From positions 551 to 62,167 of the forward strand of contig DETM01000043.1 in the NCBI GenBank assembly GCA_002361655.1: a DNA stretch of 61,617 nucleotides, read 5' to 3'. This stretch comes from Prevotella sp. UBA3288 (GTDB lineage: Bacteria > Bacteroidota > Bacteroidia > Bacteroidales > Bacteroidaceae). Position numbers and translations under genes: made by a program. Positions 40,272 through 57,523 of the stretch are shown here, piece by piece. Under the pieces are notes generated by a model that had not been told where the DNA came from, made no database searches, and worked only from the letters and a program-made list of their open reading frames with translations. Every line of letters begins with the position of its first letter. Position 1 is the stretch's first letter.

Positions 40272-40415
40272 AGTATAAAGGCTCCTACCAAAAGCAAATT
40301 GTACTAAATCAAAAGACAACCGTTCGAGAGAGTCACGTCTGTATAGGCGTGCTCTTTCTATGTGTTTGTCTTTTGGGCTATCTGTGGTAGGAGCGGCCTA
40401 TACTTCGAATACATT
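40260..40415 (+). promoter_or_regulatory. Long imperfect hairpin in the mod leader
   Basis: Arms 40260-40290 and 40385-40415 pair through GAAGTATA/TATACTTC and GCTCCTACCA/TGGTAGGAGC. Inside, CAAAAGACAA (40310-40319) pairs perfectly with 40366-40375, and an inner stem forms around 40326-40358. The structure is 156 bases long and ends 90 bases before the mod start. Confidence 0.65.
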
Positions 40416-40505
40416 GGAAAGATGTTACGCCTTCTTTTTGTGCCCTGGTGTGACATAGAGAGACTGAAAACCAGATTGCTAACAGATTTAAAGCTCCTAC
40501 CAAGC

Positions 40506-42302
40506 ATGAAGAATCTAATTGACAAATCTGAACTCATCAGCAAGTTGCAGACCTTGGAGGGTCTCAGCAACGACGAGCGTAGCAGCCTCATCGGACTGTT
40601 GCGTGAGCACAAGAAGTATGGGCTGGTGTGGGAAGACAAACCGGAAGACGTAGAGGAACGGCTGCGCGAGTCGCTGCCCGTACTGCGCGAAGTGAAGGAC
40701 AAGGCGATATTGAGCGACGAGCCTGATGCGCCTAACCATATACTGATTGAGGGTGACAACCTGGAAGCCATCACTGCCCTCAGCTATACCCATGAGGGCA
40801 AGATAGATGTCATCTACATCGATCCGCCGTATAATACGGGCAACAAGGACTTCGTCTATAACGATTCGTTTGTGGACTCGGAGGACAGCTACCGTCACTC
40901 CAAGTGGCTCTCGTTTATGAGCAAGCGCCTGAAGATTGCCAAGAAACTGCTGTCGGACAAAGGCGTTATCTTTATTTCTATTGATGATAATGAGCAGGCG
41001 CAGTTGAAACTTCTGTGCGATGAAGTGTTTGGAAGAAATCAAGAGGTTGCTCATTTGATTTGGCAAAAGAGAAAAGGCGGAGGAAATGATTCCGTCTTCG
41101 TTGGTACTGACCATGAATACATTCTCGCTTACAAAAAAAGAACAGAAGCAAACGAAGCAAAATGGAGAGTTCCCTATGATGCAGAATACCTAAAGAGATA
41201 TAAGTTTGAAGACAACCGTGGACGATATTATTATGACACGCTATCGAGGCCTGGACTAAATAATCCTATTATTTACGATGTTGTTTGTCCTGACGGGTCT
41301 ATCATTAAAGATGGAACATGGCAGATATCAAAAGAAACATTTGATGAGGGGTTAAAAACTGGAGAGGTGGACTTTGTTAGGAACAAAAACGGAGGTTTTA
41401 CTGTAATGAGAAAAGTACGTGTACCTGAAGAAGGTAAGGTGTTCAGAAGTATTATTACAAATGTTTCCAATAAAGATGCTGCTGATGATATGGAGAGGGT
41501 GCTTGGTAACAAAAAGGCGTTCTCAAATCCTAAACCCCAAGTCCTTGTATCTCAATTATTAGAATTGCCTTTTAATTCCAAGGACTTGACCATCCTCGAC
41601 TTCTTCGCCGGCTCCGGTACCACGCTCCATGCGACGATGCAGTTGAATGCCGAGGATGGAGGGCACAGGCAATGCATCCTCGTGACGAATAACGAGAATA
41701 ACATCTGCGAGGAGGTGACCTACGAACGGAACAAGCGGGTGATACAGGGCTACACCACGCCCAAGGGGCAGAAGGTGGAAGGACTGAAGCAGAACTCGCT
41801 GCGCTACTACAAGACGGACTTCATCTCTCGCGACAGGACGCAGAAGAACATGCGCGATTTGGTGGCTGCTGCCACCGACCTGCTGTGCATCAAGGAAGAC
41901 CTGTATGAGGAGCAGGAAACGTTTGGGCGGTTTAAGCTGAAACCTCAGCTGGCCCGATACTTTCGCTCCAGCTCCGCTGGCTTGCAAGGCAAGAATGATG
42001 GGCAAAAGCACATGCTGATTATCTATCGCGAGGAACTGATAGACGAAATAGCGGAGGAAATAAAGCACCTTGACTTTGGCGGCAAGTGCCTGAAAATCTA
42101 TGTATTTTCACCAGGCCGCTATCCGTTTACCGACAATTTCCGCGAGGTGGCCGACAAGGTGGAACTGGTGGCGCTGCCTGCAGCCATCTACGATGCCTAT
42201 CAGAAGGTGTTGCCCAAGCGCAAAGAGAAGTTGTTTGCAGAAGCATCAGAGGAACAGGAAACAAAAATCCCTGCCGACCTATTTGAGGGGCAGGGAGTAT
42301 AA
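40506..42302 (+). CDS. Type III-like (beta-class) DNA methyltransferase, Mod subunit
   Basis: Adenine N6 methyltransferase. The 598-residue product has the catalytic motif IDVIYIDPPYNTGN at about residues 98-111 and the SAM-binding motif LDFFAGSGTTLHA at about 361-373, the beta-class order used by type III Mod subunits. The recognition domain between them (about residues 158-355) is clearly AT-richer (about 38-40% G+C in sampled blocks) than both flanks (53-58%), as if exchanged by recombination. I start at ATG 40506 (MKNLIDKSELISKLQ). A res gene should follow but only a fragment exists, with a toxin-antitoxin pair in between; the enzyme may act as an orphan or serve the BREX operon. Confidence 0.92.
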   Translation: MKNLIDKSELISKLQTLEGLSNDERSSLIGLLREHKKYGLVWEDKPEDVEERLRESLPVLREVKDKAILSDEPDAPNHILIEGDNLEAITALSYTHEGKIDVIYIDPPYNTGNKDFVYNDSFVDSEDSYRHSKWLSFMSKRLKIAKKLLSDKGVIFISIDDNEQAQLKLLCDEVFGRNQEVAHLIWQKRKGGGNDSVFVGTDHEYILAYKKRTEANEAKWRVPYDAEYLKRYKFEDNRGRYYYDTLSRPGLNNPIIYDVVCPDGSIIKDGTWQISKETFDEGLKTGEVDFVRNKNGGFTVMRKVRVPEEGKVFRSIITNVSNKDAADDMERVLGNKKAFSNPKPQVLVSQLLELPFNSKDLTILDFFAGSGTTLHATMQLNAEDGGHRQCILVTNNENNICEEVTYERNKRVIQGYTTPKGQKVEGLKQNSLRYYKTDFISRDRTQKNMRDLVAAATDLLCIKEDLYEEQETFGRFKLKPQLARYFRSSSAGLQGKNDGQKHMLIIYREELIDEIAEEIKHLDFGGKCLKIYVFSPGRYPFTDNFREVADKVELVALPAAIYDAYQKVLPKRKEKLFAEASEEQETKIPADLFEGQGV

Positions 42303-44117: not shown

Positions 44118-46625
44118 ATGTATAAGATAACGTGGGACAAAGAGACGGGCGGTGTGTTGCTGCACTCGCGGATTGTTGAGGGCACGCTGGGCGTGTCGCC
44201 TCGTCCTGTGTTCTTCGAAGAACTTGATTTGCTGAAGCTGAACGAGCTGGGCTGGGAATACCCTCACTCGAAGGAGCCGTTGCTTTGGGCTGTCAACAAG
44301 CAGTATTGGTATCGGGGTGAACTGATGTTCGAGGCCAAGGACGCCAATATCTATGATGCCGCTACGGTGGTGTTCCAGCCAGGACGGGAGAAGATGACGC
44401 TAAAGCCAGTGGATGTGAAGACGATGCTGGCAAAGAACCACGACTTCATGTTCCTCTTGGAGAGCGAAGCCATTGAGTTCATCCGTGAGACGTTTAGCCA
44501 GTATGCCGGAGCAAGAAAGAGTGTGGAGCGAGTCGCTGCCAACCAGATGGACTATGAGGCTTTGGCTAAGCGCATGGAGAAAAAGACCAAGCAGAAGATG
44601 GCCATCGTGAAGGAAGATTGCGACAGCTTTGAGATTATGCCACTCAATACTGCTGAGGAGCAAGGGAAAAAGGTGTTCCATACCACGAAGATAGATAAGT
44701 TTCTGGCCTCTTTCTCTGGCGGCAAGGACAGTCAGGTGGTACTTGACCTCTGCACACGAGCCATTCCCAGCACCGAGTTTGAAGTCATCTATAGTGATAC
44801 CGGCTACGAACTACCTCCCTCTTTGAAGCTCTATGAGCAGGTTCAAGAGCATTACCATAAACTGTTTCCCGACTTGAAGTTTTCAATGGTTCGAAATCAT
44901 GAGAGTGTGCTGAACTACTGGGATAAGATTGGTACGCCAAGTGATACTCATAGGTGGTGTTGTACTATCATGAAAACCGCACCATTATATCGCTCTTTGA
45001 AAATCGAAGGAACCAACAAGCAGGCTAGAGTTCTTACATTTGATGGAGTAAGGTCGGAAGAGAGTGTAAGAAGAGGAGGATATGCAAGAGAAGGTAAAGG
45101 CAAACACACTTCAATCTATAATGCGCATCCCATTCTCAACTGGAATTCCGTTGAAATCTTCATGTACCTGTTTAGACACAAACTTCCTATAAATCTTGCT
45201 TACCGATTTGGTAAAGCTCGAGTCGGTTGCGTCATCTGCCCATTCTCAACGAAATGGGATGACATGATTTCGTCTAAGCTGTACCAAAACGAATTAGCAC
45301 CATTTACCAATAGACTTATCGCTTGGTCAAAGAGAGCCAATATCACTAAGACAGATGAGTTCATGAAAGAACGAAACTGGAAACTAAAGGCTATTGGTGA
45401 TACTCATCTCCTTCTGACCAAAGTTTTTTTTACCGACGGTAAAGGTCAATTCGTCGCAAATGTAAAAGCATCACAACATTCTATCTATGATTGGTTGTTT
45501 GCCTTATGTGAGTATTCACTAATCAAAGAAGGCAAAAAAGAAAGAGGAACTCTAAGATTTGGTGACGTATCATACAATTTTGAAGTCGTATATGGTGATA
45601 AAGATGGAGATTACACATTAACAGTAAATGACGTTGCAGACCCCAAACTAACCTATTTGCTACGAAGAGTAGTTTATAAAAGTTCGTTTTGCGTTCATTG
45701 CGAGGTCTGTGAGGTAGATTGTCCAACAGGCGCTTTAAGTATATTGCCAGATACGATAATCAACAGAAGCACATGTATCCATTGTCACAAATGCTTAGAA
45801 CTTCATGATAATGGATGCATAGCTGCAGATTGTATAAGAATGATTAGAAATATGAACAATAATATGGAAACAAAAATTCAAGGTTATAAAACTTTTGGTA
45901 TGAGACAAGAGTGGTTGGATGAATTCCTAACAGACCCAGAATATTTTTGGAAGGATAACACTCTTGGAACAGCTCAAGTTGATGGCTTTAAGGCGTGGCT
46001 TAAGGATTCAGAAATAACCGACTCAAAGAATAATTTGACTGAGTTAGGAAAGTTCATCAGAGATGTTAAAGACGATGAATTGAATCTTGTGTGGGAGATT
46101 ATCGTTACAAATCTATGCTACAATTCATTTATTTTCAGATGGTTCGTGAATAACATAAAACCTGCTCATCCATTTGATCGTAAGTTGTTAGAAGCATTAA
46201 TCAATGAGCAGGGATATGGAAGTTCAGGCAAGACAGTTGCAAATGCAGTCGCTGCTTTTCTCCAAACCTGCGAATACTCCCCTGTCGGGGATGTTTTGGG
46301 CTATGCTTTACCATTGGACGCAAAGAAAATGGAACGTGGCATCTATAGTGAGATAACCAATGCAGGTTTGGCATATAATCTTTACAAATATGCAGAAAAG
46401 AGAAATGTACGCTCTCTTAGAGTTGCTGATTTTTATTCTGATGAATGTGAAAACGGGCCTGCAAAAGCTCTGGGAATTAGCAAAACTACATTTGTTAATG
46501 CATTAAAATCCCTTAATTCTCTTGACAATCGAGTCCTTATAGCAGAATTAAACATGGGGCTTGACAGCATAACCCTAAGGGAAGATTTGAATAGCCTCTC
46601 TTGTCTTAAATCACTCATATGTTGA
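44118..46625 (+). CDS. brxP: BREX type 4 PAPS-reductase-like protein BrxP with ferredoxin and DUF4007 domains
   Basis: First gene of the BREX type 4 operon; its biochemical role is unknown, but the PP-loop ATPase fold suggests sulphur or nucleotide chemistry on DNA. The 835-residue product has the PP-loop FSGGKDSQVV (SGGKDS at 200-205) and a zinc/cluster-type HRWCCTIMK. It then has a 2[4Fe-4S] ferredoxin-like part at about 524-575 (CVHCEVCEVDCPTGA ... CIHCHKCLE) and a DUF4007 domain at about 585-835. The first 780 bases are G+C-rich (62% in a sampled block); from about 44.9 kb the gene is AT-rich (38%), a sharp internal change. Its stop overlaps the next start. Confidence 0.85.
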   Translation: MYKITWDKETGGVLLHSRIVEGTLGVSPRPVFFEELDLLKLNELGWEYPHSKEPLLWAVNKQYWYRGELMFEAKDANIYDAATVVFQPGREKMTLKPVDVKTMLAKNHDFMFLLESEAIEFIRETFSQYAGARKSVERVAANQMDYEALAKRMEKKTKQKMAIVKEDCDSFEIMPLNTAEEQGKKVFHTTKIDKFLASFSGGKDSQVVLDLCTRAIPSTEFEVIYSDTGYELPPSLKLYEQVQEHYHKLFPDLKFSMVRNHESVLNYWDKIGTPSDTHRWCCTIMKTAPLYRSLKIEGTNKQARVLTFDGVRSEESVRRGGYAREGKGKHTSIYNAHPILNWNSVEIFMYLFRHKLPINLAYRFGKARVGCVICPFSTKWDDMISSKLYQNELAPFTNRLIAWSKRANITKTDEFMKERNWKLKAIGDTHLLLTKVFFTDGKGQFVANVKASQHSIYDWLFALCEYSLIKEGKKERGTLRFGDVSYNFEVVYGDKDGDYTLTVNDVADPKLTYLLRRVVYKSSFCVHCEVCEVDCPTGALSILPDTIINRSTCIHCHKCLELHDNGCIAADCIRMIRNMNNNMETKIQGYKTFGMRQEWLDEFLTDPEYFWKDNTLGTAQVDGFKAWLKDSEITDSKNNLTELGKFIRDVKDDELNLVWEIIVTNLCYNSFIFRWFVNNIKPAHPFDRKLLEALINEQGYGSSGKTVANAVAAFLQTCEYSPVGDVLGYALPLDAKKMERGIYSEITNAGLAYNLYKYAEKRNVRSLRVADFYSDECENGPAKALGISKTTFVNALKSLNSLDNRVLIAELNMGLDSITLREDLNSLSCLKSLIC

Positions 46626-47074
46626 TGGGGTTGAAAGTTTCATACTACACAAATCTAATTCTCTCAACTGGTAGAGGATATAACAAGGGCTTACCTTCTA
46701 ACGCAAAGCCTTTATATCTTATCGCCATTATAGATGGAATCTCATGTGGTGACATCATGGGGAATAAATTACATTTTAATGAAACTCTTTTGAGCCTGTA
46801 TATAAATACATGTAAGAAATTAGAACCTTGGAGAGAAGCAGCAAAGTTTTATAAGCCGTTCTTTCATATGAAAAGCGAGCCTTATTACTTCATAAAATGG
46901 AAAGATGGAGTAAAGAATATCAATGCAAGTCAAACCCCTTCCGCCAAGTACCTTCGTGAGAACGTGGAATATGCCTGTTTAGACGATGAGTTGTGGGAAC
47001 TGCTACAAGATTCAGAGACGAGAAACGAACTGCGAGAAGCCATCATTCAGCATTTCATAAAACAAAGAACGTAA
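46619..47074 (+). CDS. Small BREX-operon protein resembling the N-terminal domain of McrA-like HNH nucleases
   Basis: A 151-residue protein overlapping the end of brxP by seven bases, so translationally coupled. The part NAKPLYLIAIIDGISCGDI ... YKPFFHMKSEPYYFIKW follows the pattern 'KP.LLLA.ID.I..G.I ... PF.HL....FW.L' seen in the N-terminal region of HNH/McrA-type restriction proteins that read modified DNA. There is no HNH motif here. It may be a DNA-reading subunit of the system, but I do not know the family. It shares the AT-rich composition of the second part of brxP. Confidence 0.6.
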   Translation: MLMGLKVSYYTNLILSTGRGYNKGLPSNAKPLYLIAIIDGISCGDIMGNKLHFNETLLSLYINTCKKLEPWREAAKFYKPFFHMKSEPYYFIKWKDGVKNINASQTPSAKYLRENVEYACLDDELWELLQDSETRNELREAIIQHFIKQRT

Positions 47075-47104: not shown

Positions 47105-50100
47105 ATGCCTTATAGTAAGATAGTGACGCTTCGCAACATGCGTCCAGCATACAACATCAAGGAAGAAGGTCAGGGTGAATGGAAATCGTTCATTGCCAAC
47201 GACCAGTTCAACGACATATTGATGAAGACTATCCGTGCTGTGCGCAACAATGATGCAGACACACACAAGTCGATATGGATAGCAGGAACATACGGAACGG
47301 GAAAGTCACACGCCGGATCGGTGATACAGCACCTGTTGTGTGACCCCGTAGATGACATCCGAGAGTATGTGGAGGAAGAATACCAGAAGTCGAAGTATGA
47401 CATCCTGCGCGATTCGTTACTGCAATTACGACAGACCAAGCGACTCTTCCCCGTCAACATGTATGGTCAGCAGAGCATAGCACACGAAGAGGACTTGTCG
47501 TTACAACTGCAAAGGGAAATCAAGCGCTCCTTGATATCAGCCGGTATAGACCTGACTGTACATACAGACTTCGATATGTATGTGCAGCATATTGAGAGCC
47601 AGCCCGTGTTCTGGGAGAACCTGATAGAGCAGAACGCGCAACTGGCGAGCGTAGCACCAGATGTTCATAAGCTAAAGCAGCGACTGACAGCAGCAGATAC
47701 CGATGTGCTCGACTATGTACGTCAGGCATTACGTAAAGGAGGCTACGACATCCGGCTGCAGAGTAACAATCTTAAGCAATGGATTTTCGAGGTGCAGGAA
47801 GCCCTTCGTGAAAAGACCAATTACAATGGATTGCTTATTATTTGGGACGAGTTTACCGAAGTCATGACCTCTGCCATCGGTTCACGCCTGTTGGTACAGC
47901 TCCAGGAAATATCAGAGGCCATGATGAACGAAGAGAACGACTCTTATTTCTTGTTCATCTCACATCCCTCTGCGCTGAACTCACTGAAAGAAGAAGAGCG
48001 CGAGAAGACTAAAGGCCGCTACCACTATGTGACATACAACATGGAGCCTGTCTCGGCATTCAAAATCATGTCGAAGAAGTTCAAGATAGTGAACCCGTCA
48101 CTCTATGCGATGCGACAGGAACGTTTCTTTGGCATTCACCCAGAACTGCTTGACTTGTTTAGCACCACCAGTGCGGACACAGAGCAGACCAAGGAAAATA
48201 TCAAGAACCTTTTCCCTCTGCATCCTTGTACGGCTAACCTTGCCACCTACTATGCGCGAGAGGCTGGCAGCAGTAGCCGCAGCGTGTTCGAATTTATTGC
48301 CAGCGACTCTGTGAGGAACTTCTTGGAGGATGAGGATGCTTATAACCAAGATAGGACCATTACAGCAGATTATCTGTGGGACTATGTGCAGGAGTATTTC
48401 GAGAGCGATGCAGCAAAGTTTGGTGCCGTCACCGAACGCTACAACAGTCACCATCTGTCTGTTGAGAGTCAAGGGGAGAACTATCTGAAGGTGTTCAAAG
48501 GCATCCTGCTGCTGAATGCTCTAAACAACATTGCCAACAGCGACACCGTCACCCCCAGTACAGAGAACATCGAAAACCTGTTCTTGGGAACAGAGGTGGA
48601 AGGACAGCTGGAAGAGATACTCGACTTCTTCAACGACAAGAGTATCATACAGCGTCAGCCCAATGGAAACTTCTCCATCCTATTCACCGCCCTGCCTGGC
48701 GATGAGATACAGAAAATCAAGGAACAGCTGAAAGCCTCCAGTTTCCTTTATACCGACCAAGTCATCAAGTTTGGTACTACGGCAGAGAACTTCTTCATGA
48801 GAAACTTCTCGCAGGTGGCACGTCCGTTCAGTTTCCAGTTCTTCAGCATACAAGGCAATGAATATACGCTGATGAACCGTATAGAGAATGCCAAGCGGAT
48901 GGCACAGCCCTACGAGACTTTCATGGTCATCATGGTAGGGCGCGACACACAAGAGCTGATACAGTTGAAAGACATTGCAGAAAGGAATAGTGAAGACGAG
49001 CGTTACCAGACTATTGCTTTTGTGGTGATGGAAACAGAAATGGGTACCAAAGAGTATGAGCGGTTTATAGAATACCAGGCCAACGCCCAGGTAGCACAGA
49101 GCCACAACTTGCCCCAACAGCACCAGACATACACCAAACAGGCGTCAGAAATGATTCAGCAATGGGTAAACAAGATGCGAGGCAAAAACGTGACGTTCTA
49201 TCTGAACGGAGAAAGCATGACCATCGTAGGCAGCAAGATGACAAGTACCATCAATGCTGCCATAGCCCCAGCTATATTCACCAGCGGACCTGAATCTTTG
49301 GAGTCTATCAGAACCAAGAGTAGCACCACTTATTGGAAGAAAGCATCGGTTAAGGCTACGGTGGATGCTGTGCTGAACTATAACACGAAGCAAGACATTC
49401 TGGATCGTTGTGGCGGACCTGCCCGACATGTGGAGTTCCTGCTGCAAGACAGCGTGGACGACAACCTGCAATGGAAAGACACCGTATCGCCCAAGCACCC
49501 GCTGAAAATGGTGTGCGACTATGTGGACGAATGGCTTAGCGGCAGACATACCAGCAAGAACCAGAGTTTTAATCTGGGTGAGAAGTTGATAGGACTGACG
49601 GAACCTCCTTTCGGACTGTTCCAGAGTTATGCGCCTATGGCAATGGTGGCCTTCGCCATGCGGAAATACGTCAACGTCATCTTCGACACCAACGGCAAGC
49701 AACGTACAGCCCAGCATTTGGTAGACGACGTGGTGGAACTCTTCAAAGCATGGGAGAGTGGCAAGACCAGCAATAAGCTGAACTTTATCTTTGAGAGCAA
49801 GGAGGCAGGTCGCGTCAGCAAGAGCCTCATCAGGATGTTCGGGCTAAACAAGTTGAAAGGCTATTCAGACATAAGCAGTCTGAAGGATGCCCGTTGGGCG
49901 GTGCTCCATGTATATTCGAAAGAGAAAGGCTATCCTCTGTGGTCGCTGAAATATACCAGCGACTGCACGGGCGACATGAAGGAGTTTATCGACAACCTGA
50001 TGAAGGTGGTGACAGACCCAGAGAGCATGAAGAACCCCAAACTGCTGGAAGCCACCATCAATGGGTATGACATGCTGAAGACAGACTTTGGAAATCTGCT

Positions 50101-50536
50101 GTTGCCTCAGGAGAATAACTTCCAGAAAGGCTTTGTGACCTACATGAAAGGTGTGGAAATCGTAGATGTGAAAGAGGAAGAAGTTGAAGCCGCCATCAAA
50201 TACCTGCACGGACACTTGGAAAGCGAAGTGGGTATGTGGACGGAAGAAGAGGTGAAGGACAAACTGAAGGACTGGCGAATGACCACCATCCAGCCTGTAC
50301 AACCGGTGCAACCCTTCCAACCAGCATCCATGCCAGGAGCGCCCCAACAACAACCCACAAGTCTTGGAACACAATCCATAGTCCCCGCTCCCGTTATTAG
50401 TCCAGACGACCTGAAGAAGAAACGTAACAAAGCCATCAACCGCGTGAACAATAGCGACGACCTGCGTCAGGCTATAGAGAACATGATTAATGCAGAAGAC
50501 AGCAACGTAATAGACATTCTGTTGAAATATGTATAA
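47105..50536 (+). CDS. brxC: BREX ATPase BrxC/PglY
   Basis: Large P-loop ATPase present in all BREX types, probably the engine that couples phage DNA recognition with block of replication. The product has 1143 residues. Walker A is GTYGTGKS at residues 61-68 and a Walker B-like LLIIWDEFTEVM lies near residue 247. The long C-terminal part is helical with a proline/glutamine-rich linker (QPVQPVQPFQPASMPGAPQQQP) near residue 1070. It overlaps pglZ by eight bases. Composition is again G+C-richer (about 55% in one block), unlike the preceding gene. Confidence 0.9.
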   Translation: MPYSKIVTLRNMRPAYNIKEEGQGEWKSFIANDQFNDILMKTIRAVRNNDADTHKSIWIAGTYGTGKSHAGSVIQHLLCDPVDDIREYVEEEYQKSKYDILRDSLLQLRQTKRLFPVNMYGQQSIAHEEDLSLQLQREIKRSLISAGIDLTVHTDFDMYVQHIESQPVFWENLIEQNAQLASVAPDVHKLKQRLTAADTDVLDYVRQALRKGGYDIRLQSNNLKQWIFEVQEALREKTNYNGLLIIWDEFTEVMTSAIGSRLLVQLQEISEAMMNEENDSYFLFISHPSALNSLKEEEREKTKGRYHYVTYNMEPVSAFKIMSKKFKIVNPSLYAMRQERFFGIHPELLDLFSTTSADTEQTKENIKNLFPLHPCTANLATYYAREAGSSSRSVFEFIASDSVRNFLEDEDAYNQDRTITADYLWDYVQEYFESDAAKFGAVTERYNSHHLSVESQGENYLKVFKGILLLNALNNIANSDTVTPSTENIENLFLGTEVEGQLEEILDFFNDKSIIQRQPNGNFSILFTALPGDEIQKIKEQLKASSFLYTDQVIKFGTTAENFFMRNFSQVARPFSFQFFSIQGNEYTLMNRIENAKRMAQPYETFMVIMVGRDTQELIQLKDIAERNSEDERYQTIAFVVMETEMGTKEYERFIEYQANAQVAQSHNLPQQHQTYTKQASEMIQQWVNKMRGKNVTFYLNGESMTIVGSKMTSTINAAIAPAIFTSGPESLESIRTKSSTTYWKKASVKATVDAVLNYNTKQDILDRCGGPARHVEFLLQDSVDDNLQWKDTVSPKHPLKMVCDYVDEWLSGRHTSKNQSFNLGEKLIGLTEPPFGLFQSYAPMAMVAFAMRKYVNVIFDTNGKQRTAQHLVDDVVELFKAWESGKTSNKLNFIFESKEAGRVSKSLIRMFGLNKLKGYSDISSLKDARWAVLHVYSKEKGYPLWSLKYTSDCTGDMKEFIDNLMKVVTDPESMKNPKLLEATINGYDMLKTDFGNLLLPQENNFQKGFVTYMKGVEIVDVKEEEVEAAIKYLHGHLESEVGMWTEEEVKDKLKDWRMTTIQPVQPVQPFQPASMPGAPQQQPTSLGTQSIVPAPVISPDDLKKKRNKAINRVNNSDDLRQAIENMINAEDSNVIDILLKYV

Positions 50537-52949
50537 AGAACCGTTCAGAGATTTAGAGGACCTGAAGCGTCATGTGGAAGAGGACAAGCAGGCGAAAGGT
50601 GTGGGAGCGGCAACGCTGGACCGATACCCTATACGCTTTGTGCTGTTCGACAACTTCCGTGAATGTTTTGATTTCGTGGAGTATCTGCAAAGTGAGCGAG
50701 GTGCCCATGTGGAGAGTGTTGACCGATGGATAGACACAAACTATCCCGACCTGATGATAACGCATGTGGAACTGGCAGAAAGAATACAAGAACACATCAA
50801 GAAGAAGAGTCCGCACGACTGCGTGATAGCCCCCTTCTCTGAACTGGCCCGTTTCTACGATAACGACAAGAAAAAATCGTTTGACGCCCTGCTGAAAACC
50901 ATCAAGGCTATACAGGCCAGTGGCGAAGGCGTGGAAAGCCATCAACGCGTCTATATTCCGCTGGTAGGTTTGGAAGGCAAGATGGAAGCCTTCAAGGAAG
51001 ATACGCAGATCAACATCTGGCGACTGGTATCGAAAGAGAAAGACTTGACCTACAAACTGATACTAACCGACAGACAAGACTTCGGAGTGAAAGGTCTGGA
51101 GGCCAATTATACCATCGTGAACAACATACGCGAATGGCTGAACATCTGGAAAGACAGCAAGCAGCAGGTGTCGCCCCAGATTATATGCAAGTCGCGTGCT
51201 ATATACGCCAATGCCGTGTATGCGCAGCCCGACAATGCTTTCAGCTATGAGACCTGCCGCAATGCCTACGAGTTTCTGGCACATGGCCTGGGACTCAATT
51301 TCGGAGGCATACAGCCACTGATGAGCGACGGCGACAATTGGGAACGTCTGGCAGAAGAGATAGATGTCAGTACAGGGTTCAGCTTTACGAAGTTTGTGAA
51401 ACAGCATTTCGGTATTGACGATATAGAGAACCACAAGGACTTTATCCGTCTGTGGTTTAGTCATCCGGCCATCTTCGACCGATGGCTATTGGCCCGCTAT
51501 TATGACAACAAGGAGAATGGTCAAGGTTACCTGTGCCGTGTGCTGAAAGCGACAACCAACTACGGCACGAACGAACTGTTAGAGGCGATGGCAGGAGACA
51601 TTTCAGAGATTACAGCAGAGATGGACATACGCCGTTATTGCCTGAAATACGCAGCCCAACAGAATGTGCTACTGACGGAAGCGGCAGAAAGCATGGTGGC
51701 GAAGACACTCCAGGCACTACCCGAGAGAATGGGCTATACGAGTGCGCTGCGATATTTCACCGGCATTACGCGCAAGGAGAAAGAAATCGCCTTGCAATGG
51801 TTGGGTCAAGGAAAAATCATGGCAGACGACTTGGAGAGTTTCTTCCCAGACTTGTATTGCTATGCCGCAGAAGGAATCGGAGTCAGCGCAGGTGTGCCAG
51901 ACTGGGTGAATGGCTACATCGAGAAATACAAACGGGCCAAGTTGGCCAATCGCTATACAGAAGAAATCAGCCAGAGCATACAACAACTGAACGAGACAGA
52001 GTCGAAGTTCGATCTGTGGTATAACAGCTTTAGTCCTGTTTATACGCTGCTGAAGAACCGTGGCGACATCGAAGTTTTCTATTGGATTGACGGTCTCGGT
52101 ATCGACTGGATACCGCTGGTGAAGCAAATCGTAGCAGAGCATAAAGAACAGCAGATATATCTGAACGAAATAAAAATAGCAAGAGCCAAGTTACCTACCA
52201 AGACCGACATCAACAAAGCGGAGTTGCAACGACTGTTGCCAGAAGGACAGGTGCTGGAGAAATACGGAGACCTGGATGCTCAGGCACATCGTACGGACAA
52301 CATCAGCCCCTTTACCGTTATCAAAGAAATAGAACTGGTGAGGAAGAGCATTGAGAACATCCTGCAATTATATATAGGTAAAAAGATAGCCATTATTTCA
52401 GACCACGGACTGACCTACCTCTCACAGATGCAGAGTGGCAAGAACCTGACGGGAGTGGATAGTGACCATCACGGGCGAATAGCCATCAGGAAAAAGGCCG
52501 GAAACGATGCAGACAACAGCTATTTCCGACTAGAAGACGGCAAAACGCTTTGTGCGTTGAAGCACGAATCGCTATGCGCAAAGGTTCCTGCAAACCAAGG
52601 AGCACATGGTGGCTGCACACCTGAAGAGGTGCTGGTGCCCATCTTTATCATCAGTAGTGCGCCTGCACCCACGAATTGGTCGGCACAGTTGCTTACCTAC
52701 GAGATAAGCGGTTCTAACCCCAAGGCACAGATTGAGATTAAGAACCTGCCATCTACCGATGTACCACACGTCAATTATAATGGTAAGGTATATCAATTGC
52801 ATCATCTTGGAGGAGATGTGTACGAGACCGATGACTTGATACTGGATGCGAACTGTCAGGATATGTCTTTGCACATCGGTGACGTAGAGCGCCCGATGAA
52901 GATAAAAGTCAGCACGGGCGTTCAGGAAGACGATTTGTTTGGTTTTTAA
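50529..52949 (+). CDS. pglZ: BREX alkaline-phosphatase-like protein PglZ
   Basis: Second universal BREX component, a phosphatase-fold protein. The 806-residue product has an N-terminal helical region and a phosphatase domain from about residue 515: VFYWIDGLGIDWIPLV with a metal-binding aspartate, IAIISDHGLTYLSQ, and SDHHGRIA and GAHGGCTPEEVLVPI with further metal histidines. The C-terminal 90 residues form a beta-rich domain (SNPKAQIEIKNLPS). It overlaps brxC and is followed by brxL after 12 bases. Confidence 0.92.
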   Translation: MYKEPFRDLEDLKRHVEEDKQAKGVGAATLDRYPIRFVLFDNFRECFDFVEYLQSERGAHVESVDRWIDTNYPDLMITHVELAERIQEHIKKKSPHDCVIAPFSELARFYDNDKKKSFDALLKTIKAIQASGEGVESHQRVYIPLVGLEGKMEAFKEDTQINIWRLVSKEKDLTYKLILTDRQDFGVKGLEANYTIVNNIREWLNIWKDSKQQVSPQIICKSRAIYANAVYAQPDNAFSYETCRNAYEFLAHGLGLNFGGIQPLMSDGDNWERLAEEIDVSTGFSFTKFVKQHFGIDDIENHKDFIRLWFSHPAIFDRWLLARYYDNKENGQGYLCRVLKATTNYGTNELLEAMAGDISEITAEMDIRRYCLKYAAQQNVLLTEAAESMVAKTLQALPERMGYTSALRYFTGITRKEKEIALQWLGQGKIMADDLESFFPDLYCYAAEGIGVSAGVPDWVNGYIEKYKRAKLANRYTEEISQSIQQLNETESKFDLWYNSFSPVYTLLKNRGDIEVFYWIDGLGIDWIPLVKQIVAEHKEQQIYLNEIKIARAKLPTKTDINKAELQRLLPEGQVLEKYGDLDAQAHRTDNISPFTVIKEIELVRKSIENILQLYIGKKIAIISDHGLTYLSQMQSGKNLTGVDSDHHGRIAIRKKAGNDADNSYFRLEDGKTLCALKHESLCAKVPANQGAHGGCTPEEVLVPIFIISSAPAPTNWSAQLLTYEISGSNPKAQIEIKNLPSTDVPHVNYNGKVYQLHHLGGDVYETDDLILDANCQDMSLHIGDVERPMKIKVSTGVQEDDLFGF

Positions 52950-52961
52950 CTTGAAAGACGT

Positions 52962-54425
52962 ATGAAAGAAGAAATATGCAATAAAATTAGGCAGCACTTT
53001 TCTGCCATGTCCATCTATAAAGACCCTGCATCTACGGGTAGTCTGTTTGTAGGTCGTAATCTTCCTGCCTTCGTGAAGGACTTCCTGCTAAAGCGTTATC
53101 TGAATGTTCAGACGGGAGAGGTAGACAAGTTGGCCTTGACGCAGTTTCTCGACAAGGTGATACCTTCGCAACAAGGTAGCGTGAAGGACCGCTTACAGAA
53201 TGGTGAAGAAGTCACCTTGCTGGCACGTTTCACAGTGTATATCGACATCATCAAGAACGAGCGACAGTTTGCCATACCCGACTACAGCATAAAATTGCGA
53301 GAGGGTATCATTCCCGAATATGTCTATTCGAAGAACTCTGGAGATTTCGTGGATGGCGAACGCTGGGGCATCATTAAACTCTGTCTGCTGCCAGACAGTA
53401 ACGGTAAGACCAGCCATATACAGATGGTGGACTATAAGCCGTTCAAGCCCTATAGTTCTGTGGATGTTGGCTATTTGGCTGATGCTCGCCAGTATTTCAC
53501 TACGCAGGAGTGGATAGACGTGCTGCTGTCAGCTATGGAGTACGACCCTGACGGCTTTGCCTCATTGACACAGAAGCTGGAGTTCCTGACTCGTCTGCTG
53601 ATATTCATCGAGCCAAGGCTGAACGTGATTGAATTGGCTCCAAAGGGAACGGGTAAGAGTTTTGTGTTTGGCAATCTGTCAAAGTATGGCTGGTTGGTAA
53701 GCGGCGGCAAGGTGACACGCGCCAAACTGTTCTTCGACAAAACCAAGCAGCAGAACGGCATCATCAAGAATCACGACTTTACGGTGTTTGACGAGATACA
53801 GACCATTGTGTTCCAGGAACCGGCAGAGATACAGGCTGCCTTGAAGTCATATCTGGAAAGCGGTAAGACGACTATCGACAATAATGAATTTACCTCAGAA
53901 TGTGGGTTGATGCTGATGGGTAATATCCCCTTGTCAGCGCATAATGTTCCGTTGTCACAGATGTATTTCAGCAACTTGCCAAAGAATTTCCAAGAGTCAG
54001 CATTGCTTGACCGCTTCCATTGCTTCATCGAAGGTTGGCTGTTACCACGAGTGGATAAGAGTATGATCTTCAAGGGATGGACTATCAATGTAGAGTATTT
54101 CTCAGAGATTCTTCACTCCATGCGAACGCAAAATACCTACGGACTGCTTTTCGATCAATTGGTCAAGTTCGAAGAGAAAGCAGATGTCCGTGACAGTAAT
54201 GCCATCAAGCGCATAGCAACTGCCTATATGAAACTGCTCTTCCCCCATTGGCACAGGATAGAGGATGTCAATGAAGATGAGTTCCGTATGTATTGTCTTG
54301 ACCCCGCCATTCATAGACGTGGCATCGTAAAGACACAATGCCACAACATAGACCCTGAGTTCAAGACTCGTATGCCGGTTGTAGATATTGTAGAACGAGG
54401 ATTTACAGAAAATAAGCTTTTCTAA
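52962..54425 (+). CDS. brxL: BREX AAA+ protein BrxL, short form
   Basis: Lon-related AAA+ protein that, in characterised systems, forms a DNA-encircling multimer. The 487-residue product has Walker A APKGTGKSFVFG at about 226-237 and Walker B FTVFDEIQTI at about 271-280. NNEFTSECGLMLMGNIPLS and LLDRFHCFIEGWLLPR (sensor/arginine-finger region) follow. It lacks the additional C-terminal peptidase-like domain of the ~680-residue BrxL of type 1 systems; short BrxL forms are known in type 4, so I do not call it truncated. The next gene starts three bases after its stop. Confidence 0.88.
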   Translation: MKEEICNKIRQHFSAMSIYKDPASTGSLFVGRNLPAFVKDFLLKRYLNVQTGEVDKLALTQFLDKVIPSQQGSVKDRLQNGEEVTLLARFTVYIDIIKNERQFAIPDYSIKLREGIIPEYVYSKNSGDFVDGERWGIIKLCLLPDSNGKTSHIQMVDYKPFKPYSSVDVGYLADARQYFTTQEWIDVLLSAMEYDPDGFASLTQKLEFLTRLLIFIEPRLNVIELAPKGTGKSFVFGNLSKYGWLVSGGKVTRAKLFFDKTKQQNGIIKNHDFTVFDEIQTIVFQEPAEIQAALKSYLESGKTTIDNNEFTSECGLMLMGNIPLSAHNVPLSQMYFSNLPKNFQESALLDRFHCFIEGWLLPRVDKSMIFKGWTINVEYFSEILHSMRTQNTYGLLFDQLVKFEEKADVRDSNAIKRIATAYMKLLFPHWHRIEDVNEDEFRMYCLDPAIHRRGIVKTQCHNIDPEFKTRMPVVDIVERGFTENKLF

Positions 54426-54428
54426 CTG

Positions 54429-56390
54429 ATGGTTGTCTATTATCTCAATAAGGTGAGCGAGAAACTGACAGACTATCGCTATCCGATCAAGGAAGGCGAC
54501 ATCTGTATGCTGTATGATGGAGATGTCGTTAAGACTATTTATGTGGATAGCGAGACGGAGACAGATTCCATCTGGCGTGACTTCAAGTTCATAGATTCCA
54601 AGTCTTTGAAGAGTTATCATCTTCCCAAGACAGATAGCGTGCTTTGCGCTCCTGTTGGCGACAAGCATGCCATTGGCGATACAGCGCTGTTGACTCAGTT
54701 GATTCAAGAGTGTAAAGGGGAGTGGCTTTTGGATTTTCTGAATGAGACATCAGCAGTTCTCTCTGGATTTGTGGATTACTGGGACTTGATGGTATTGAGA
54801 CGTCTTACTGGAGATGATGATATTGAGATAGCATACGGAGACGAAGAAGCTTTATCTGCTTTTATAGACGAACCCGATGAAGATGACGAGGATGAAGAAT
54901 TGGAAGATGAATACGAGGAAGAATATACAGACGTTGACATCTTGCCAAAAAGCTATGATATCAAGTGGTTCTGCCTTTCAGCCTTGAGTTGTATAGAAGG
55001 TCTGATGGACAAGCGTAGCTATCAGATACTTCATGATACGTTGCAAGGCGATTCGAGAAGTGATATAGCGTCTCGCTTTCATCTTACCCAAGAACGGATT
55101 CGACAGATTGTTGTGAAAGCGACTAAACAGGCCAAGGAGCTGCTCATAGAACAACGTCAAAGCCTTGAAGAAGCGAAAGCGGAGAATGCGAAGCTGAGGG
55201 TGCAGATGAATCTTCTGAGAGAAGATTTAGAAGGGTTAAAGAAACTTGTCCCTCAAAATGTGTTTATATATAAATCGGAAGAAGGGGATATAAATGCAGA
55301 ATTAACAGAGTTGCTGGAAACCCCTTTGAAAGATATAAACCTACCCGTACGGGCTACCAATATACTCCTATTTATGAAAGTTAGCAAGTTCGCGGATATA
55401 CCACAAATAGAGAGTTCTATGAAACTGTTGAAGGTAAGGAATAGTGGTAGGAAGACTCTTCTCGATGTTTCGCATTTATTGGAAGACTTTCATCTAGATT
55501 TCGGTATGTCATTAACGGAAATTATCGACGTTTTAAAGAAGGCTGATTGGCATGATGCCAAGAGGAAGTGGATGGAAAAAGGCGAAGAGGAGAATCGTAA
55601 AGAGCGTGATGGATATGAAAATAATCGTCGGGAAGAGAAATATAGCAATGGTAACTTCGGAAAAGAGTCTCATCCAATTTCGAATGGAGAAGACAAGAGG
55701 ATTGGCTGGACTGTGAGATTGTTCCCGTCTCAGCAGATAGGTGTCATAGTAAAGGTGAGGACTGATGAAAAAGGAATGAAGAAGCTGGTCGTTAAAACCA
55801 ACGAAGGCAATACGATGGTGATTGACGATGTTCTATATCTTTATGAGGTATTGAGGAAAAGTCCAAAACCAACAGCAGAGGTCGGCATTGTGAAGCAGAA
55901 AGAAACAGAGAATGTAAAGACGGAAGAAGCGACTATCGTACTCACGAAAGAGATAATCGAAGCTGCACGGACACCTAATGGTGGATTTACAAGAAGTCAG
56001 TTGGCCGCTATTGGGATAGACTGGCCTGCGCCTCAGGACTGGATAGAGGAAAAGGTGGGAACGATGATTACGCCTTCCCAGTTGGCTGAATTTAACCGTA
56101 TTGAATATGTGGCAAAGCCACAGAAGCAATTCATCCAAAGTGAAAGTTCGACAACTTATAAAAATGTTGCTTTCAATTCGGATGACCGAAGAAAGATGGA
56201 GGCTATCTTACAGGCGATGACTCATTTCTATGCGCCTGCTACTCCTCGTGACATTTCCCGAACCATCAGCCGTTCTGCATGGGGCGACGAAGCAATACGA
56301 GAAGATACTGTGGACTCGATATTGAAACGTCTACCTGAGGTCGAATATATAAAATGGGGTAAGTATATCCTTAAAAGTAGAAACAAGTGA
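54429..56390 (+). CDS. Unusual putative transcription regulator: sigma-region-4-like HTH plus RNA polymerase alpha-CTD-like domain
   Basis: Last gene of the BREX operon, 653 residues, not a known BREX core gene. Seen in order: an N-terminal part of unknown fold (1-145); a very acidic stretch (146-168); a helix-turn-helix like sigma-70 region 4 (RSYQILHDTLQGDSRSDIA, LTQERIRQIVVKA; about 196-238); a coiled coil (238-273); and a helix-hairpin-helix domain like the alpha-subunit C-terminal domain (LLETPLKDINLPVRATNILLF ... LLKVRNSGRKTLLDV; 293-362). A charged linker comes next, then a small domain (about 395-480), and a C-terminal winged-helix-like segment (about 585-653, MTHFYAPATPRDISRTISR). 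It could bind DNA and RNA polymerase and regulate the operon or a phage promoter. Confidence 0.7.
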   Translation: MVVYYLNKVSEKLTDYRYPIKEGDICMLYDGDVVKTIYVDSETETDSIWRDFKFIDSKSLKSYHLPKTDSVLCAPVGDKHAIGDTALLTQLIQECKGEWLLDFLNETSAVLSGFVDYWDLMVLRRLTGDDDIEIAYGDEEALSAFIDEPDEDDEDEELEDEYEEEYTDVDILPKSYDIKWFCLSALSCIEGLMDKRSYQILHDTLQGDSRSDIASRFHLTQERIRQIVVKATKQAKELLIEQRQSLEEAKAENAKLRVQMNLLREDLEGLKKLVPQNVFIYKSEEGDINAELTELLETPLKDINLPVRATNILLFMKVSKFADIPQIESSMKLLKVRNSGRKTLLDVSHLLEDFHLDFGMSLTEIIDVLKKADWHDAKRKWMEKGEEENRKERDGYENNRREEKYSNGNFGKESHPISNGEDKRIGWTVRLFPSQQIGVIVKVRTDEKGMKKLVVKTNEGNTMVIDDVLYLYEVLRKSPKPTAEVGIVKQKETENVKTEEATIVLTKEIIEAARTPNGGFTRSQLAAIGIDWPAPQDWIEEKVGTMITPSQLAEFNRIEYVAKPQKQFIQSESSTTYKNVAFNSDDRRKMEAILQAMTHFYAPATPRDISRTISRSAWGDEAIREDTVDSILKRLPEVEYIKWGKYILKSRNK

Positions 56391-56706: not shown

Positions 56707-57084
56707 TTATGCCAGTACTACGTCTGCCGGTACTCCGAGCACTTTGTGAAGGCTGCGGGCAACATCGAAGCTCAGCGGGCGACGACCATGAAGCAGATCG
56801 CTGAAGGTGGTGGCACTGATGCCTATCATGCGGGCTGCATCTTTTTGCTTCAGACCTCGCTCTTTTACTTGGCTCAGGATGGCTTCGGTGAGCAGTGTGC
56901 TCATCCGTCCGGGTAGCGGATGGTAGGCGCGGCCATATTCGTTGAGGGCTTCGCTCAACTTCGTGAACTCTGCCTTCTCATCGTCGCTGAGCAGTTCCAT
57001 GTCGCCCAACGCGGTACCTCTCGTAATCAGATGCTCTATTCGAGCCTCGTAGTCCTGATATTCCTTTTCGTTCTTGATGGTCAT
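56707..57084 (-). CDS. HigA-like helix-turn-helix antitoxin, no toxin partner visible
   Basis: A 125-residue protein with an acidic N-terminal half and a C-terminal XRE-type helix-turn-helix (QKDAARMIGISATTFSDLLHG, about residues 80-100) followed by SFDVARSLHKVLGVPADVVL, as in the HigA2/'HTH XRE' antitoxins that follow HigB toxins. No HigB-like ORF lies next to it; the neighbouring DNA holds remnants, so it seems to be an orphan. It has its own promoter. Confidence 0.85.
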   Translation of the reverse strand: MTIKNEKEYQDYEARIEHLITRGTALGDMELLSDDEKAEFTKLSEALNEYGRAYHPLPGRMSTLLTEAILSQVKERGLKQKDAARMIGISATTFSDLLHGRRPLSFDVARSLHKVLGVPADVVLA

Positions 57085-57151
57085 ATCCTAAATATTTTTG
57101 ATGTCTTTATACCCACAAAATCTGCCGATGGGAAGTCTGCCTTTCTTTTCT

Positions 57152-57184
57152 GCAAAAGTACGATATTTATACGGAATTACCAAA
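57152..57184 (-). promoter_or_regulatory. Promoter of the HigA-like gene
   Basis: Minus strand: TTTG (57181-57184), 20 bases, TACTTTTGC (57152-57160). The leader is about 65 bases. Confidence 0.7.
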
Positions 57185-57210
57185 GGATTTTTGTAAATTC
57201 TTCACAAATT

Positions 57211-57379
57211 CATGAACTTTTGAGATTAAGTACAGGAGAATTGGAAAAAGATTCAGTTTGTCGGAAATTCCGACGAACTGCTGCTGATGGTAAGGAATAC
57301 AATACACAATATTATAATCTCGATGCCATCATCGCTGTAGGCTACCGTGTGAACAGCATCCGCGCCACGCAGTTCCGGC
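57211..57379 (+). pseudogene. Fragment of a RhuM-family virulence/defence-island gene
   Basis: An open frame of about 55 codons reads HELLRLSTGELEKDSVCRKF ... TAADGKEYNTQYYNLD, AIIAVGYRVNSIRATQFR. This is the N-terminal signature of RhuM proteins (YNLD.II.VGYRV.S..ATQFR). The match stops abruptly at 57379, where sequence homologous to the end of mod begins in another frame. No start codon or remainder exists. RhuM genes are frequent inside restriction-modification loci. Confidence 0.7.
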
Positions 57380-57523
57380 AAGGTGGAACTGGTGGCACTG
57401 CCCACAGCTATCTACGATGCCTATCAGAAGGTGCTGCCTAAGCGCAGGGAGAAACTATTGGCAGAAGAAGAAATAATAATCCCTACTAATCTGTTCGAGG
57501 GAATTGTAGAGGACGAATCATGA
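57380..57523 (+). pseudogene. C-terminal fragment of a second mod gene
   Basis: Codes for KVELVALPTAIYDAYQKVLP and on to LFEGIVEDES, clearly homologous to the last 48 residues of the intact Mod (KVELVALPAAIYDAYQKVLP ... LFEGQGV). Several substitutions and a three-residue length difference show that this is a diverged relative rather than a recent copy. Everything upstream is deleted and replaced by the RhuM fragment. Confidence 0.85.

Follow-up and report, generated by a model that had tools for sequence, protein, structure and literature searches.

The window analysed here, a stretch of 61,617 nucleotides from a Prevotella genome (sp. UBA3288, contig DETM01000043.1), carries a type-4 (phosphorothioate) BREX operon, of which the last gene is an open reading frame for a 653-aa protein. 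The genes for the type-4 core components BrxP, BrxC, PglZ and BrxL are all located upstream from this gene; in contrast to that core, the operon also includes the terminal gene itself and a stand-alone sulfur-binding-domain gene between brxP and brxC. The operon is aligned as follows.

44118..46625, plus strand: brxP (PADLOC BrxP, 888.3 bits over residues 1-834; PAPS_reduct, 105 bits; Fe-S)
46619..47074, plus strand: gene for a 151-aa protein homologous, by profile match, to a solved sulfur-binding domain
47105..50536, plus strand: brxC (2234.7 bits)
50529..52949, plus strand: pglZ (1405.4 bits)
52962..54425, plus strand: brxL (743.5 bits), with its stop codon 3 nt ahead of the start of the next gene
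54429..56390, plus strand: the terminal gene, 653 aa

Residues 739-830 of BrxP gave a sub-threshold match to DUF4007 (BrxA-like; 23.5 bits, cut-off 27). The 151-aa product showed no Pfam match; its profile of 19 rows matched SBDHga1 (8h0l) with an E value of 1.5e-28, and as judged from sequence the gene is homologous to the sulfur-binding domain.

The original prediction had described, for the terminal gene, a sigma-4-like helix-turn-helix (HTH), a coiled coil, an RNA polymerase alpha-CTD-like domain, an acidic stretch and a C-terminal winged helix. All five are borne out by profile and fold matches and by the structural model, and three further parts, not named there, were recognised: an N-terminal domain (N-domain, or platform N), a small barrel and one more module.

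54429..54836, plus strand: N-domain, residues 1-136 (residues 1-145 modelled alone: pLDDT 85, pTM 0.79)
54828..54944, plus strand: acidic linker, residues 134-172, mostly of low confidence in the model
54951..55133, plus strand: sigma-70 region-4-like HTH, residues 175-235 (E222, R223, R225 and Q226 invariant in 142/142 relatives)
55134..55250, plus strand: coiled coil, residues 236-274
55290..55544, plus strand: RNA polymerase alpha-CTD-like domain, residues 288-372 (R308, G340, K342 and T343 invariant in 142/142; N311 in 134/142)
55686..55862, plus strand: module K, residues 420-478, a predicted small beta barrel
55908..56087, plus strand: module G, residues 494-553, small, mostly helical and shuffled among relatives
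56154..56381, plus strand: module W, residues 576-651, a winged helix

The alpha-CTD part matched both the CTD profile and the CTD fold. The sigma-70 region 4 HTH scored 17.3 against 24.1 in the window protein, and 25.0 and 25.9 in two relatives; compared with RpoD, the sigma-4 part of the window protein gave an E value of 0.0026. The fold search also returned winged-helix resemblances for module W, the fold rows being winged helices other than HARE-HTH, for which a Pfam match was absent. CAP-Gly/Tudor-type rows from Foldseek, which were returned without a query range, presumably belong to module K. For the N-domain, a clear fold match was not found among the candidates considered by fold and sequence profile, including the PUA-like readers EVE, ASCH and YTH. 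A duplication of the N-domain in a 488-aa short form of the protein was considered and set aside as weak (single-sequence blastp, E 3.7e-6 to 3.7e-4; hmmsearch, 2.6e-4 at best; hhalign, 5%). Up to an E value of 10, the Pfam matches of the window protein include neither a WYL domain nor sigma region 2, the part for core and -10 binding. The alpha-NTD is absent as well, since the matches are confined to the C-terminal part of the alpha models (best score 29.7 bits against a cut-off of 302).

The predicted link with BREX and with brxL was confirmed in other genomes. Using two short peptide patterns and the family alignment, a scan of genome_contigs (84,980 species per its description) yielded 21 stretches, of which 11 were confirmed; as the finding of candidates relied on the two patterns, relatives without either of them were missed. 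In all 11 loci brxL was located directly upstream from the family gene, with the same spacing of 3 nt as in the window. The pglZ gene was also present in 11/11, and brxC and brxP in 10/11, the locus L053 being cut by a contig end. The match was in two or more separate pieces for brxC of P. falsenii (L044/L057), for brxC and pglZ of P. aurantiaca (L051/L059) and for brxP of P. disiens (L061), and thus the BREX operons of these three may be damaged or their assemblies faulty. The source genome, 69% complete, holds a single family copy. No family match was found in plasmids, none of 24 pattern matches in viral_contigs was confirmed as a relative, and the phage records gave one remote match (MT835636).

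Within the genus, sampled as two sets of 398 genomes with the same handles where listed, the N-domain was detected in 6/398 and BrxL in 28/398. The six N-domain genomes are those with BrxL at 89-100% identity, the remaining 22 BrxL genomes being at 82% or less. Seven genomes (G164, G074, G425, G266, G547, G253 and G578) are the same as those of seven of the 11 named loci and were counted once. A family-level search with residues 1-384 was swamped by RNA polymerase alpha (221/251 genomes matched) and is unusable as a family count; among the matches listed for this search, the N-domain was included only in G000, G164 and G074. With this pattern of occurrence, a chance neighbour, that is an unrelated gene lying beside BREX, is extremely improbable: rarity in the genus (6/398) is all that speaks for it, and it is already contradicted by the constant order and 3-nt spacing in 11/11 loci and by the coincidence of the N-domain with the closest BrxL group in 6/6 genomes.

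Other type-4 BREX operons are without the family protein, and other genes occupy its place. A survey was made of 20 of the 22 other BrxL loci (all except G291 and G533) together with five from the order (brxL being absent from one of these), and ten products were scanned. The slot product of L105, which was scanned, is an SMC/Rad50-like ATPase. The L103 product resembles it by eye; for L102 and L106 the SMC label is based on ORF sizes and order, and for L104, cut at a contig end, on its 90-aa gene together with a BrxL the same as in L103. The slot product of L107 (3784-5760) has 658 aa and includes a GHKL ATPase domain, and that of L110 is a Schlafen/AlbA_2 protein with a winged HTH. In L118, L119, L120 and L073, the slot proteins start with a second conserved N-terminal segment, platform S (the SPILEYA segment), followed by modules from the shared set: K in three and W in one, both of which also occur in the window protein, and F and I in L073, of which F also occurs on platform N proteins. 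In L108, L109, L111 and L116 no same-strand ORF of at least 90 aa was found close behind brxL. The position after brxL is a variable accessory slot. By appearance, the C-terminal part of the L107 GHKL protein looks nuclease-like. In L118 and L120, a sulfur-binding domain is located behind brxL, fused to platform S.

Platforms N and S are alternatives, each confined to one BrxL clade among the loci read. On a BrxL tree of 36 rows (L071, without brxL, was left out), the platform N operons form one clade of 12 rows and the platform S operons one clade of 4 rows, both with support of 100/100; near-copies make labels cluster on this tree, and the tool warns that long branches meet close to the S clade. 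The SMC label requires two changes on the same tree. The association of platform type with BrxL clade can arise from shared descent.

The modular organisation of the protein was analysed by searching 12 modules in the window protein, 148 of its relatives and 7 slot proteins, 156 in all, the relatives coming from homologue searches that listed the best 120 of 217, the best 120 of 215 and all 82 matches. A total of 38 architectures was obtained, the frequencies of modules being biased because the set was gathered with an N-type query. Platform N or S begins 154/156 proteins, and the two occur together in none. The sigma-4/coiled-coil/alpha-CTD unit is present on 125/125 platform N proteins and on 19/29 platform S proteins; these 19 are known as sequences without genomic context, and the unit is missing from all 7 platform S proteins read in loci. 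Behind the unit, the modules K, G, W, a SANT/Myb-like module Y (a sub-threshold Pfam match) and others follow in many orders. As to whether these modules are readers, the fold is supported for W and weak for K and Y.

Over residues 1-382 the window protein is 98% identical to the relative P0024, but past that point the likeness is confined to residues 589-649, at 44%; the swapping of C-terminal halves thus looks recent from this alignment. L053 compared with the window shows 98% identity for PglZ and BrxL, 93% for the N-domain, 75% for the sigma-4/coiled-coil part and 59% for the alpha-CTD. In 7 of the 11 loci (L056-L062) the protein is a short form without C-terminal modules, so these modules are dispensable. 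About a third of the relatives are near-identical short forms (45 by pattern).

Conservation of individual residues was counted in 142 of the 148 relatives, namely those aligning across the unit, the other six having fewer than 170 aligned columns. The 142 sequences are mutually related; grouped at about 80% identity they make 73 clusters, of which 71 retain all three parts of the motif by a loose pattern test and two are without the R..N part. The four invariant residues of the recognition helix match DNA contacts of E. coli sigma-70. In E. coli alpha the DNA contacts are R265, N268, C269, G296, K298, S299 and E302, and the kept family residues, including N338 (139/142) beside those already given, match this 265 determinant. 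The match is not identity throughout: at the position of alpha 299, T replaces S in 142/142, the C269 position holds I in 66 and V in 64 of 142, and at the E302 position 118 sequences have D and 19 have E. When five alpha-CTD columns were drawn at random 100,000 times, 26 draws were as conserved as R308, N311, G340, K342 and T343 jointly, a test in which the C269 and E302 positions of the determinant were omitted as non-identical. Beyond the presumed contacts, R196 and I200 (142/142) and G207, A214, L219, T220 and K230 (138-140/142) are also conserved; positions of the R196 and I200 type are taken as structural. Both of the tested positions (D302 and N304) that correspond to the sigma-contact site of alpha are variable.

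Retention of DNA-contact residues is not automatic outside RNA polymerase, since in a protein of L179 (G564, contig C45) an alpha-CTD-like domain (E 5.4e-11 to P0058) has the R, N and K replaced, as aligned by eye. This protein, encoded some 7 kb from its brxL, appears RecQ-like by eye. Taken together, the conserved residues favour DNA binding through both the sigma-4 and the alpha-CTD faces; they suit a plain transcription regulator as well as they suit the adaptor proposed below.

Both folds have been noted before in other defence proteins. A 2026 BREX survey (PMC12839542) reports that BrxL contains a sigma-HTH and that PglW has a domain like the alpha-CTD, and PMC10853773 reports a sigma-HTH for DndH. 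In PglW of type-2 BREX, as the survey gives it, winged helices and a variable C-terminus come after the alpha-CTD-like domain, an arrangement shared with the window protein; PglW, however, has nuclease, kinase and iSTAND parts, none of which was recognised in the window protein, while the latter has the sigma-4 part and the N-platform. Section 34 of the survey names the type-4 components, this protein not being among those given there, the survey reports a cysteine desulfurase for type-4 BREX in 56% of taxa, and its main text contains neither "SBD" nor "sulfur-binding". In the running text of open-licence papers, neither the family protein nor its slot was found described, nor was a prior description of type-4 BREX with a modular accessory subunit.

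The phage protein MT835636 (L122:5716-6714), from an unannotated faecal phage record, carries sigma-4 and alpha-CTD in the same order as the family, with 28.6% identity over residues 175-365, but has an N-terminal HTH_17 where the family has the N-domain; the sigma-4/alpha-CTD unit thus also lives outside BREX. By a precomputed annotation, the family member P0056 also carries HTH_17.

Based on these observations, we propose, at about even odds, that the protein is a dedicated accessory subunit of Bacteroidales type-4 BREX, acting as a modular DNA-reading adaptor. Both in the window and in the 11 loci of the genome scan, its gene closes the operon and follows brxL directly. The conserved N-domain would dock onto one of the BREX core proteins, with BrxL as first candidate since the type of platform follows the BrxL clade, and the coiled coil would dimerise the protein. 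As suggested by residue conservation, the sigma-4 helix and the alpha-CTD would bind DNA in their ancestral ways, the former on a major-groove -35-like sequence and the latter on the adjacent A/T-rich minor groove. Further reading of DNA or ligands may be added by the exchangeable modules of the C-terminal half (barrel, winged helix, SANT-like and others), which may turn over under phage pressure. Once bound, the adaptor would guide BrxL/PglZ/BrxC to those parts of incoming DNA that resemble promoters, or steady the restriction complex at these sites.

In a more specific form, which we put forward only tentatively, a clade-specific platform after brxL and exchangeable readers would make up a plug-in targeting layer, with the sigma-4/alpha-CTD unit homing on the strong sigma-A-type promoters of the invader. 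On this view promoter architecture and swapped readers would determine specificity alongside the phosphorothioate motif. Should the protein be a reader, targeting in BREX would have a swappable layer, with a logic like that by which restriction enzymes exchange their target-recognition domains. Here one phosphorothioate BREX clade has a constant partner that joins two promoter-contacting domains to shuffled modules, and the family thereby touches the wider question of the role of variable BREX accessory genes.

Three alternatives involve the transcription machinery. The known BREX regulators, BrxR, are WYL proteins; like BrxR, the family protein is BREX-linked and predicted to bind DNA, but it has no WYL match and its gene is last in the operon. 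As a stand-in for BrxR, it would sit on promoters through sigma-4 and alpha-CTD and repress or tune the BREX operon in competition with RNA polymerase. Both promoter-type DNA faces are kept, the gene lies within the operon that it would control, and the phage protein with HTH_17, sigma-4 and alpha-CTD fits an origin from a regulator. Nevertheless, a rapidly swapped C-terminal half is needless for a local regulator, and three of the scanned products of sister slots are SMC-, GHKL- or Schlafen-like and not regulators, though the last does have a winged HTH, so that we consider this role rather unlikely.

Phages are known to attack RNA polymerase, AsiA acting on sigma-4 and Alt/ModA on an arginine of the alpha-CTD, and the protein could be a decoy or guard against such a take-over, showing two polymerase surfaces and triggering BREX once bound or modified. 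The arginine matching alpha R265 is invariant (142/142), and the recognition helix is similar to the one in the sigma-4 protein that scores best in the source genome, presumably RpoD. A decoy, however, should track the host protein more widely than is seen: compared with 27 Bacteroidaceae RpoA, the alpha-CTD shares no more than 39-44% identity, and neither of the two positions tested in the sigma-contact site is constant, which leaves this explanation improbable.

The original prediction had also proposed that the protein might recruit or hijack RNA polymerase, or sense a phage that targets it; recruitment could, for example, drive defence genes in infection. The resemblance to polymerase parts stands: the CTD fold, the DNA-contact residues and the region 4 recognition helix are common to the window protein and to RNA polymerase alpha and primary sigma. 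Unlike these, the window protein scores well short of the subunit cut-off (29.7 against 302 bits) and is without sigma region 2 and alpha-NTD, and so has no recognised part for binding the core. The same folds are also reported for BrxL, PglW and DndH in the papers cited above. The recruiting, hijacking or sensing part of the claim received no specific support, the DNA-contact residues being kept while the sigma-contact positions vary, and we regard recruitment of the polymerase as doubtful at best.

An adaptor of the kind preferred here could also be imagined to set the phosphorothioate motif, a role examined by comparing operons. The family proteins of P. falsenii, HJM029 and P. aurantiaca are 97-100% identical. 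Between P. falsenii and HJM029, the family protein is 98-100% identical while the C-part of BrxP is at 45% and the sulfur-binding domain at 41%; for HJM029 against P. falsenii or P. aurantiaca, the values are 44-45% and 41-49%. On the assumption that the BrxP C-part and the sulfur-binding domain set the motif, these presumed motif genes have been exchanged independently of a near-identical family protein, which is therefore unlikely to be its setter.

Other genes are located around the operon in the window. Upstream from it, a type III-like DNA methyltransferase gene (40362-42302) is followed by a 219-aa gene without Pfam match. Just past the operon (56707-57441), an XRE-type HTH ORF lies on the minus strand, overlapped by a plus-strand ORF with a partial match of 46 residues to the RhuM family.
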